Below, piece after piece: positions 41,929 through 44,887 of a DNA stretch of 64,000 bases. The notes under the pieces are model-generated. The model saw only the letters and a list, made by a program, of their open reading frames with translations. It did no database searches and was not told where the DNA came from. The position numbers were made by a program, and so were the translations under genes. Source of the DNA: Rhizobiaceae bacterium (GTDB lineage: Bacteria; Pseudomonadota; Alphaproteobacteria; Rhizobiales; Rhizobiaceae); the NCBI GenBank assembly GCA_029233925.1, contig JARGOX010000005.1, positions 186,001 to 250,000 of the forward strand, given 5' to 3'. The first letter of the stretch is position 1. Each line of letters starts with the position of its first letter.

Positions 41929-42059
41929 CTTTTACGCACCGCTGTCCGACCGAACAGGCTCCTGAAGGCTTAAAACCGCCCGTCCTTTGAGAAGATGCTC
42001 GACATTGCGGGCATTTTTCATAGAGTCGGGGCAGTTTTGTGCGTAAAGGGGGCCAGTTC

Positions 42060-43034
42060 ATGGTACGCCGCCACCTGATACATCTATTCAGTCTATGGAT
42101 TTGCCTCACGCTGCTTGCCGTGCCGGTGGCCGCCAGTCGCGTGCTCGTTGTGCCGGAAGGCAATCGCAACGCTGAACAACCGCGTGTTCCAGGATCTTCA
42201 GTCAAACGCACCAAACAGACGAAATCCACCTTCGAGCGCAAATACCAGAAAATCCTGGCCCTGCTGCAAAAAGATGCCAAGCTGCGGGGCAAGATTGCCC
42301 GCGCAGCGCAGGCCTATGGTATCAGTCCACTTCATATTGTTGGCGCTCTGGTGGGTGAGCACACCTACAATGTGGATGCCTATGACCGTCTTCAATCCTA
42401 TTACGTCAAGGCTCTTTCCTACGCCACCGGCGGCATCAGCTTCGACTATGACGGTGAAGACATCAATGACTTCATACAGCGCAGCCAATTCGCGCAATGT
42501 AACGGGCTGTCGGATTCGTTTGATCTTTGGTCATGCCGGGAAACTGTATGGGATGCCAAGTTCCGGAACCGGAATGTGGGGGGCAAGCGTTTTCCCAATG
42601 ACCGATTCAGTGCTGTTTTTTTTCAGCCATTTTATGCCGGACAGACATTCGGGCTGGGCCAGCTCAACCCCCTGACGGCACTCAAATTGAGCGACATGGT
42701 CAGTCGTGTTTCGGGCTATCGCAAATTGTCGCATCAAAAGGGTGATGATGTCTACAAGGCCATCATGAACCCCGATATGACACTGGCCTATGTTGCGGCG
42801 GCCCTGCGCAATTCCATCGAGGCCTATCAGGACATTGCCGGATTTGATATTTCTTCCAATCCGGGCGTTACGGCAACGCTTTACAATGTCGGCAACCCAC
42901 AACAGCGCGCCCAGGCGCTTGCCAGAAAAAACCAGCAGCGCAGAGCCAAGGGGCTGGCCCCACAATATCCCGAAGAAAATTATTACGGCTGGCTGGTCAA
43001 TGACAAGCTGGACGATTTGAAACGATTGTTCTGA
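42060..43034 (+). CDS. DUF1402 family secreted protein
   Basis: 324 residues with a signal peptide ('HLIHLFSLWICLTLLAVPVAA' region, cleavage near residue 27). The mature part has 'YGISPLHIVGALVGEHTYNVD', 'FGLGQLNPLTALK' and 'YNVGNPQQRAQAL'; the pattern recalls lytic transglycosylases (catalytic Glu in 'GEH', then 'G.GQ...' and 'YN.G'). DUF1402 proteins downstream of hslU are typical of Rhizobiales. The function is unproven. ATG 42060 follows AAAGGGGG at 8 bases. Confidence 0.8.
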   Translation: MVRRHLIHLFSLWICLTLLAVPVAASRVLVVPEGNRNAEQPRVPGSSVKRTKQTKSTFERKYQKILALLQKDAKLRGKIARAAQAYGISPLHIVGALVGEHTYNVDAYDRLQSYYVKALSYATGGISFDYDGEDINDFIQRSQFAQCNGLSDSFDLWSCRETVWDAKFRNRNVGGKRFPNDRFSAVFFQPFYAGQTFGLGQLNPLTALKLSDMVSRVSGYRKLSHQKGDDVYKAIMNPDMTLAYVAAALRNSIEAYQDIAGFDISSNPGVTATLYNVGNPQQRAQALARKNQQRRAKGLAPQYPEENYYGWLVNDKLDDLKRLF

Positions 43035-43163: not shown

Positions 43164-43460
43164 ATGCAAGATGCAACAATCAATTGTTCACAATCGAAGC
43201 AAACCTATGAAAAACCGGTCGTGACCCGGCGGTCCAACCTGCTGACTGTTACGGCAAATTCCGGTGGTTCTATTAACGGCATCAGCGGATCGGCTCCTCT
43301 GGGATGAGGTCATGCGTCAGACCGTCGGCAAGAACGATTGCTATAGAGCATATCTGGCGCAGGCGGTCTGCGGATGGTCACACTGGAAGAACGGGAAGCC
43401 TCTCCTGTGGCCGTTGTTGCGGGACAGGCCCCTGTACCACCGCAAGGTAAAGCTCATATA
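43164..43460 (+). pseudogene. Degenerate first copy of the leader/S74 cassette
   Basis: ATG 43164 with GGAGAG upstream opens a 47-residue frame ending at TGA 43305-43307: it begins 'MQDATINCSQSKQTYEKPVV' and continues 'TRRSNLLTVTA...ISGSAPLG'. This matches the N-terminal part of the two intact copies that follow. Beyond it, bases 43320-43460 match their 3' part ('VGKND' and 'MVTLEE.EA' in shifted frames), but about 138 bases coding for the 'SDRRLK...' core are missing. It is therefore an internally deleted copy, which may still express a short leader-like peptide. Confidence 0.7.
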
Positions 43461-43565
43461 ACGCAAAAACCATTTGCACGGGTGCAGGACAGACGTTGCA
43501 ATTGTCAGTTTAGCTTCAATTTTGTATATCTGATTCACAATTCCCGAATCCGGAGAGCCGTTTCA

Positions 43566-43991
43566 ATGTCAAATGACAAAATTACAAGTTCACAATCCAG
43601 GCGTACCTATGAAAAACCGACCGTGGTACGACGTTCCAACCTGCTGACTGCTACGGCAACGACTCTTATGGCCATCAGCGGCTCGTCATCCGGGGGTGGT
43701 AATGATTCTGATCGACGGCTGAAGACCCATATCCGCACCCTGGAGAAAACTGCAAACGGAATACAGCTATACGCCTTCCGTTATTTGTGGAGTGAGCAGA
43801 CCTTTGTCGGCGTCATGGCGCAGGACCTGCTGGATCAGCCTGAATTTTCTCACGCGGTGATTATCGGCAAGAATGATTACTATCGGGTCAATTATGACGC
43901 GCTGGGACTGCGCATGGTCACACTGGAAGAATGGGAAGCCACCCCTATGACCCTTGTTGCGGGAACCGGCCCCTGTGCCACCGCTGGGTAA
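43566..43991 (+). CDS. Small protein with lasso-leader-like N-terminus and S74-type chaperone domain, copy B
   Basis: 141 residues. Residues 12-32 read 'RRTYEKPTVVRRSNLLTATA', with the YxxPx(L/V) spacing and later Thr of lasso/RiPP leader peptides. A Ser/Gly-rich linker follows ('ISGSSSGGGND'). From Ser48, 'SDRRLKTHIRTLEKTANGIQLYAFRY', 'FVGVMAQDLLDQPEFSHAV' and 'YYRVNYDALGLRM' fit the Peptidase_S74 intramolecular chaperone of phage tail fibres, whose Ser-Asp motif is the self-cleavage site. No fibre domain is present. The function is unknown; RiPP-like and phage-derived readings are both possible. Confidence 0.72.
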   Translation: MSNDKITSSQSRRTYEKPTVVRRSNLLTATATTLMAISGSSSGGGNDSDRRLKTHIRTLEKTANGIQLYAFRYLWSEQTFVGVMAQDLLDQPEFSHAVIIGKNDYYRVNYDALGLRMVTLEEWEATPMTLVAGTGPCATAG

Positions 43992-44104
43992 AAACAAATA
44001 ATGTGAAAACCATTTGCGCGGCTGCAGGACAGGCGTTGCAATTGGCAGTTTAGCTAAAATTTGTATATCTGATTCACAATTCCCGAAGCTGGAGAGCCAT
44101 TTCA

Positions 44105-44533
44105 ATGTCAAATGACAAAATTACAAGTTCACAATCCAGGCGTACCTATGAAAAACCGACCGTGGTTCAGCGTTCCAACCTCCTGGCCGTTACAGCGGAA
44201 CCTTTGGCCATCAGCGGCTCGTCATCCGGTGGTGGTAATGTATCTGATCGACGGCTGAAGACCCATGTCCGTGCACTGGAGAAAACTGCAAACGGAATAC
44301 AGCTATACGCTTTCCGTTATTTCTGGAGTGAACAGACCTTTGTTGGCGTCATGGCTCAGGACCTGCTGGATCAGCCTGAATTTGCCCATGCGGTAATCGT
44401 CGGCAAAAATGATTTTTATCGAGTCAATTATGACGCGCTTGGACTGCGCATGGTCACACTGGAAGAATGGGAAGCCACCCCTATGGCTGCCATTGCAGGG
44501 CCAGCCCAGGTCCCGCTTGCGGCAATCTCATAA
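44105..44533 (+). CDS. Small protein with lasso-leader-like N-terminus and S74-type chaperone domain, copy C
   Basis: 142 residues, closely similar to copy B: 'RRTYEKPTVVQRSNLLAVTA', a Ser/Gly linker, then 'SDRRLKTHVRALEKTANGIQLYAFRY' from Ser47 and 'FVGVMAQDLLDQPEFAHAV'. Differences are concentrated in the linker and the C-terminal 15 residues. Its own ribosome site GGAGAG and promoter-like upstream region are repeated from copy B. The stop overlaps the 3' end of the convergent XRE gene by 6 bases. Confidence 0.72.
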   Translation: MSNDKITSSQSRRTYEKPTVVQRSNLLAVTAEPLAISGSSSGGGNVSDRRLKTHVRALEKTANGIQLYAFRYFWSEQTFVGVMAQDLLDQPEFAHAVIVGKNDFYRVNYDALGLRMVTLEEWEATPMAAIAGPAQVPLAAIS

Positions 44534-44887
44534 TTCAAACGCATCCAGAATCGCTTGAAGCCGGCGAATATCGTCGGGCCCAAGGTGTTTGATGGACGAG
44601 GATAGTCGGTTGGCGAGCTCTGTTGCCTCCGGTGACAGGCCGGATGTGTCGATGGTAACGCGCGGATGAGACAGGGCGGCAAGGCGCTGCAATTCCTCCG
44701 CGTCATCCCAGATGACATTGAAAAAACCGATAATACGTTGCAAGAGATCCCAGCTTGGCTGGCCGCGGTGCCCGTGTTCCAGGGCCGACAGATAGGCCGG
44801 TGATATGCCGATGGCCTTTGCCATATGTTTTTGCGTGATGCCACGCTCGGCCCGCAGCCTGCGAATTTCCTCTCCAAAAGGGGTCAC
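44528..44887 (-). CDS. XRE-type helix-turn-helix regulator
   Basis: 119 residues. Cro/C1-type HTH at about 6-62 ('IRRLRAERGITQKHMAKAIG' and 'SPAYLSALEHGHRGQPSWDLL'), then a helical C-terminal half. ATG 44887 overlaps the stop of the Smr gene, placing it at the end of the mltA-Smr operon. It is convergent with the S74 cassette; any regulatory link between them is unproven. Confidence 0.88.
   Translation of the reverse strand: MTPFGEEIRRLRAERGITQKHMAKAIGISPAYLSALEHGHRGQPSWDLLQRIIGFFNVIWDDAEELQRLAALSHPRVTIDTSGLSPEATELANRLSSSIKHLGPDDIRRLQAILDAFEL

Follow-up and report, generated by a model that had tools for sequence, protein, structure and literature searches.

The window, a stretch of 64,000 nucleotides from a Rhizobiaceae bacterium, contains a tandem array of three related genes between two flanking open reading frames (ORFs). 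Two of the genes are intact, encoding 141 and 142 amino acids, and in each a YEKPTV leader is combined with a Peptidase_S74 domain, as an earlier sequence-only reading of this DNA had claimed. The same reading called the third copy degenerate, which is right for its S74 domain, most of which is lost, but not for its leader and putative core, which are intact and followed by a stop after residue 47. In the list below, copy 2 starts at an inner ATG; the ORF list gives an open frame from 43374.

42039-43034, + strand: flanking ORF, 331 aa
43164..43307, + strand: copy 1, leader and 16-residue putative core, 47 aa (ORF; stop at the S74 start point of copy 2)
43206..43256, + strand: copy 1 leader, residues -17 to -1, YEKPVVTRRSNLLTVTA
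43365..43438, + strand: remnant of the S74 3′ end, downstream of copy 1 (direct repeat; overlapped by a similarity match to query residues 111-137)
43566..43991, + strand: copy 2, leader, core and S74, 141 aa (ORF and Pfam)
43608..43658, + strand: copy 2 leader, residues -17 to -1, YEKPTVVRRSNLLTATA
43659..43706, + strand: copy 2 putative core/linker, 16 residues
43707..43988, + strand: copy 2 Peptidase_S74 domain, Ser48/Lys53 (Pfam match)
44105..44533, + strand: copy 3, leader, core and S74, 142 aa (ORF and Pfam)
44147..44197, + strand: copy 3 leader, residues -17 to -1, YEKPTVVQRSNLLAVTA
44198..44242, + strand: copy 3 putative core/linker, 15 residues
44243..44530, + strand: copy 3 Peptidase_S74 domain, Ser47/Lys52 (Pfam match and model)
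44528-44887, - strand: flanking ORF, 119 aa

The three copies are tandem duplicates, because direct repeats of 281 nt (92%), 140 nt (66–100%), 74 nt (77%) and 68 nt (85%) run across the array at spacings of about 402 and 536–540 nt. The encoded protein is under purifying selection: copies 2 and 3 show a dN/dS of 0.22, and the S74 domain of copy 3 differs from that of a neighbour from the same genus (L003) by 11 synonymous and 0 non-synonymous changes. Copy 1 could be an S74-less precursor, since it keeps leader and core and stops where, in copy 2, S74 begins at Ser48.

Leader–S74 genes were found in two of the eight genomes of this genus that were searched, the source genome included. The neighbour L003 has a single copy between the same flanking ORFs; its gene (L003 8001-8429) pairs an N terminus resembling that of copy 1 (MQDATINCS) with the S74 domain of copy 3 without amino-acid change, a pairing that suggests recombination among array copies.

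Leader register and domain identity

All three window leaders place Tyr at -17, Pro at -14, Val at -12 and Thr at -2. This is the register of lasso leaders, for which YxxPxL at -17 to -12 and Thr as usual at -2 are reported (PMC10368454). The corresponding pattern, Y..P.[LVI].{9}T, was set post hoc; when residues 1-46 of copy 3 were shuffled 200,000 times, it arose 121 times. A DNA pattern for Thr-Tyr-Glu-Lys-Pro has four matches in the 6.1-Mb genome, three in the array and one in a small peptide gene on contig C12, close to RRE and B2 genes, and the reversed-pattern control has one. Profile searches of the three window proteins returned no NCBIfam family at E values up to 1, so that the match to a lasso-leader model sought on the strength of the earlier reading did not appear; against the lasso leader model (cut-off 19), a relative (L092) scored 17.5 bits and an S74-less sibling (L099) 19.0. 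The putative cores, of 16, 16 and 15 residues, are Ser-rich and begin with N, T and E; none of the three has Gly1 or an Asp/Glu at positions 7–9.

The assignment of the C-terminal part to Peptidase_S74 (PF13884) held up above the curated cut-off of 22 bits in copy 2 (residues 48-89, 28.4 bits) and copy 3 (residues 47-88, 24.1 bits). For both, the best PHROG match was phrog_6121 (E values of 1.3e-14 and 6.9e-14). An AlphaFold2 model of copy 3, built on a 15-row alignment, gives block pLDDT values of 86–92 for residues 51-120 and below 50 for residues 1-42, and contains a single short helix (119-124). A fold search with this model retrieved 18 predicted phage intramolecular chaperone (ICA) proteins from BFVD at E≤0.001 (best 7.1e-7), with a TMq of only 0.41–0.48, and no PDB entry at that threshold (296 at E≤10). 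Kinases were the best PDB fold matches listed (E of 0.09, above the threshold), and mitofusin, the sole PDB sequence match (alignment A1, E of about 0.4), was judged to be due to chance.

Candidate processing genes and S74-tailed relatives

Contig C12 of the source genome encodes an RRE (43.0 bits; cut-off 23.4) and a B2 protease (NF033537, 50.4 bits; cut-off 33), together with HprK-like, NTP_transf_5, ACP, GNAT and AMP-ligase genes and two YEKP peptides:

L065 4041-9777: C12 cassette, RRE-B2-HprK-like convergent with AMP-ligase-GNAT-ACP-NTP_transf_5

Of the three kinds of lasso machinery that the earlier reading had proposed looking for in the genome, RRE and B2 are thus present, but a cyclase was not seen near the cassette: the 19.5 kb around it contain no ORF with an [SD]GGxDS motif. 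With this result, and with cores that have neither Gly1 nor the Asp/Glu at 7–9, a classical lasso peptide appears out of reach of the window copies. Five further genomes of the genus contain the cassette (L067 and L256-L259 among the loci), six of eight encode B2, and small YEKPxV peptides were seen in three of these six; again, the five same-genus cassette regions examined hold no [SD]GGxDS-motif ORF. The HprK-like genes score 26–30 bits against an NCBIfam cut-off of 200. A cassette that combines RRE, B2, HprK-like, AMP-ligase, ACP and GNAT genes, with no cyclase seen, may represent a further uncharacterised RiPP-like, possibly acylating, pathway. In the window's genus, the distance from the leader Tyr to the core end is 32–33 residues in the S74 copies, 33 in copy 1 and 32, 33 and 36 in three cassette peptides; on these small numbers the core end matches the S74 position, but a fourth cassette peptide, at 63, departs from it.

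Relatives were sought at several taxonomic ranks; ‘sphingomonad-like’ and ‘rhizobial’ are informal labels for genome sets, and N termini were judged on the retrieved loci rather than on every similarity match. A class-wide search matched 16 of 385 genomes and yielded G719 and G541, which belong to another order. Full S74-tailed precursors are encoded in 3 of the 296 genomes of that order (G719, G947 and G541) and in 9 of the 40 genomes of G719's genus. In G719, the last 4 nt of a gene for a protein with GATase and Asn_synthase domains (Pfam GATase_7, 93 bits; Asn_synthase, 118 bits) are shared with the precursor gene. The top NCBIfam match of that protein is the lasso cyclase NF033535 (328.6 bits, under the cut-off of 525), and genes for a methyltransferase, an HprK-like protein (29.7 bits), an RRE (72.3 bits) and an NTP_transf_5 protein (84 bits) lie alongside. 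An SGGLDS-motif ORF lies no more than 70 nt from the S74-tailed precursor in all nine genomes of this genus; there is none within 70 nt of the G541 precursor. B2 lies about 2 kb away in four of the nine and was found only elsewhere in the other five, so processing in trans has precedent.

All ten S74-tailed precursors (the nine and G541) have Thr(-2), Gly1 and Asp8. From Gly1 to the residue before the S74 Ser they span 15–25 residues (median 16.5, n=10), and 27 siblings that share the leader but have no S74, drawn from the order and the genus, span 15–26 from Gly1 to the stop (median 16; Mann–Whitney p=0.86) and have Asp at 8 or 9 in every case; the length comparison drops a duplicate (L104) and an unparsed locus (L231) and leaves out L108 and L114. 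Because the two lengths agree, the S74 Ser occupies the position at which ordinary precursors stop.

One alternative is that S74 is the cargo, and that the leader brings in RRE and B2 so that a small S74 protein is processed or exported, with no peptide released. In keeping with this, no part of the sphingomonad-like proteins is better conserved than S74 (median dN/dS of 0.16, with 29 of 36 pairs defined, versus 0.39 for the core, 26 pairs, and 0.22 for the leader, 19 pairs; the reading of L216 and L220 starts at an inner position and G541 was excluded), and other small alphaproteobacterial proteins join short S74 domains to N termini that look, by eye, like signal peptides or lipoprotein signals. 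The stretch between leader and S74 is nonetheless built like a lasso core in all ten relatives with Gly1 and Asp8, and the 27 S74-less siblings share both leader and core build. We therefore consider the cargo explanation unlikely.

Within the window's own order, a search matched 51 of 397 genomes. Beyond the window's genus, just two of the proteins read there combine leader and S74, both from G161, a genome of a different family, and a phylum-wide search (398 genomes, 29 matched) added no further such protein among the loci read. Near one of the two, at a distance of about 1.4 kb, is a PqqD RRE gene (49.1 bits); a B2 protease gene (NF033537, 47.6 bits; cut-off 33) lies 1.7 kb away and is followed by an HprK-like gene (26.3 bits; cut-off 200) and an NTP_transf_5 gene (80.4 bits; cut-off 31.2). 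In line with the earlier reading, the YxxPx(L/V) pattern recurs in S74 homologues of other lineages, both beside RRE and B2 (G161) and beside a cyclase-like gene (nine genomes). The G161 cores are short (11 and 7 residues). From Tyr to Ser the two proteins have 28 and 24 residues, as against lengths of 29, 29 and 27 for the G161 peptides that have no S74, and they fit less well with a core end at the Ser position. The combination of leader and S74 is not due to chance.

In a tree of S74 domains (71 rows, 69 columns), the sphingomonad-like domains group in a single clade (99/99), with those of the window and G161 placed outside it; the tree omits L221, missed by the parsing pattern, and L003, the segment of which is identical to that of copy 3. 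Repeated independent origin of leader–S74 fusions is suggested, and no more firmly than that, because the approximately unbiased test rejects neither a single clade for all 13 (p-AU 0.096) nor one for the rhizobial four (p-AU 0.209).

Several further arrangements were seen among the loci. On contig C171 of G161 (L152 3686-5955), three small peptides, each with a Y(S/R)KPTL leader, are encoded in tandem directly 5′ of a 517-aa ORF (L152:4402-5955) that resembles asparagine synthase by eye and has no Pfam or NCBIfam match. Ten loci (L006, L008, L017, L018, L021, L024, L025, L026, L139 and L148) encode small alphaproteobacterial proteins with a short C-terminal S74, an N terminus that by eye is signal-peptide- or lipoprotein-like and, often, a Gly-rich linker. 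Genus g40, from another family of the order, has S74 proteins of 143–159 aa (L122-L125, L127 and L027) in which an N-terminal segment is hydrophobic by eye and S74 starts in a diverged form (SE..IK). Plasmid searches gave 68 and 72 records, all below 60% identity and none spanning 80% of the query; in three plasmid regions the S74 gene lies directly 3′ of a caspase-family gene in two and precedes a DUF1295/methyltransferase gene in two. On the Rhizobium plasmids L119 and L120, the S74 gene immediately 3′ of the caspase-family gene is annotated as ‘tail fiber domain-containing’, and in L119 it is followed by an isoprenylcysteine methyltransferase family gene.

The Ser–Lys dyad and the length of S74

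Known ICA domains cut before a Ser through a Ser–Lys dyad after trimerisation, with S578/K583 in MYRF and S911/K916 in endoNF as examples (PMC3742443, PMC8326128). The Ser–Lys pair, at a spacing of five, is present in 15 of 15 leader–S74 proteins, and S, D, R and K of the motif S-D-x-R-x-K are invariant in a 15-row alignment (A3); the viral rows of A3 came through a parse that required the Lys, yet both residues are kept in all 30 viral relatives found by similarity. MYRF cleavage requires a trimer driven by a C-terminal coiled coil (PMC8326128), and the MYRF leucine zipper begins about 105 residues past the Ser (S578 to L683; PMC3742443). From the Ser to the C terminus, copies 2 and 3 have 94 and 96 residues and the sphingomonad-like proteins 75–79. 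These domains end before about Ser+105, so none has room for a trimerising coil placed as in MYRF. Self-cleavage before Ser47/48 is plausible, and goes no further than that, because the dyad is kept in a domain too short for the known coil.

The same length bears on a second alternative, in which S74 does not cleave itself but serves as an oligomerising or stabilising tail, the dyad residues are structural and any removal falls to another protease. Besides the missing room for a coil and the dependence of known cleavage on trimerisation (PMC8326128, PMC3742443), it gains from the 29 of 30 viral relatives that likewise stop shortly past the V-x-Y motif. The invariant S, D, R and K in A3 and the placement of the Ser at the natural core end argue against such a tail, and we rate it as quite unlikely.

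A third alternative is that the window genes are decaying tail-fibre remnants of a phage in which the YxxP motif arose by chance. The window S74 is of phage type, and one copy has lost most of it. Set against this are the purifying selection on the array and the lasso register of its leaders, and the recurrence of the fusion beside RRE/B2 and cyclase-like genes in other lineages contradicts it; we regard this origin as very improbable. In viral contigs, YxxPx(L/V/I) occurred in the short (<90 residue) part before S74 in 0 of 23 parsed loci among the 30 found; the remaining seven have Thr before the Lys and were inspected around S74.

S74 as a candidate follower domain

We lean, at slightly better than even confidence, towards the window genes being orphan precursors of a RiPP with a lasso-type leader that are processed in trans, with S74 as a removable C-terminal follower. 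Going by the shared leader motif, the YEKPxV leader would be bound by the PqqD-type RRE of the C12 cassette; the transglutaminase-like B2 protease encoded there would then cut after Thr(-2)-Ala(-1). Known from lasso biosynthesis are the phosphorylation of precursors by HPr-kinase homologues and, for pseudomycoidin, the addition of hexose by a nucleotidyltransferase (PMC8498205). By analogy with these enzymes, the HprK-like and NTP_transf_5 proteins would probably decorate the Ser-rich core of 15–16 residues with phosphate and hexose, and AMP-ligase, ACP and GNAT together may add an acyl group, all in lieu of a lasso-making cyclase. The S74 follower would hold the precursor until its own Ser–Lys dyad removed it before Ser47/48, leaving the core to end where S74-less siblings stop. 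What the earlier reading proposed overall survives in its S74 match, its recurring build and the presence of RRE and B2 in the genome, and finds no support as regards a classical lasso and a leader-model match.

More generally, S74 might be a modular, self-removing C-terminal RiPP maturase that sits at the core end, oligomerises or shields, and then cuts itself off before the Ser, serving both lasso clusters with a cyclase and cyclase-less, possibly acylating or phosphorylating RRE/B2 cassettes; we offer this wider reading tentatively, at somewhat less than even confidence.

Compared with lasso precursors, which have a YxxPxL leader and separate B1 and B2 proteins, the leader–S74 proteins show the same leader register and the same RRE (PqqD) and B2 families, and the sphingomonad-like relatives also share a cyclase-like gene (9 of 10), Gly1 and Asp8. 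The HprK-like (a weak match) and NTP_transf_5 partners resemble those of the phosphorylated lasso systems bsf, paeninodin and pseudomycoidin. What the leader–S74 proteins add is a C-terminal S74 of 75–96 residues (123 in one G161 protein), and the window copies, in addition, have neither Gly1 nor an Asp/Glu acceptor, and around the cassette no cyclase was seen. With the S74/ICA domains of phage endosialidases, T5 pb1 and MYRF they share the S-D-x-x-x-K start, the spacing of five and the G-V-M-A motif; with the phage proteins they share the C-terminal placement, and the window model is similar to phage ICA. Unlike in those proteins, the window S74 follows a leader and short core (about 46 residues in all) rather than a β-helical fibre, and it lacks the length needed to hold that C-terminal coiled coil. 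It is of the same short subtype as S74 proteins of phages (phrog_6121 and phrog_4287) and of other alphaproteobacteria, none of which, among those read, has a RiPP leader. Some RiPP precursors carry follower peptides, in which a recognition or chaperone element comes after the core; the window follower would differ in being a folded, potentially self-cleaving domain.

A literature search, judged by title and covering few subscription journals, found no fusion of S74 to a lasso or RiPP precursor. One paper gives a tail fiber protein and lasso B2 genes as separate clusters (PMC10040529), and the search entry for a work on Klebsiella phages (PMC13123978) has ‘lasso’ alongside tail terms. Distant relatives with the leader–S74 build lie in apparently genuine lasso-peptide gene clusters, which makes finishing of the C terminus of a small peptide by S74 a possible unreported route.

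Genome mining may overlook S74-tailed precursors, because two tested score under the lasso leader cut-off and because related plasmid S74 proteins are annotated as tail fiber proteins. The sphingomonad-like clusters, with a cyclase-like gene, an S74-tailed precursor, an RRE and a kinase-like gene, can be tested directly in a heterologous host. In lasso and related precursors, B2 trims the front; a built-in domain that trims the back would, if true, be a new maturation logic, and phage machinery would have been reused for small-molecule synthesis, comparable to its reuse in MYRF.
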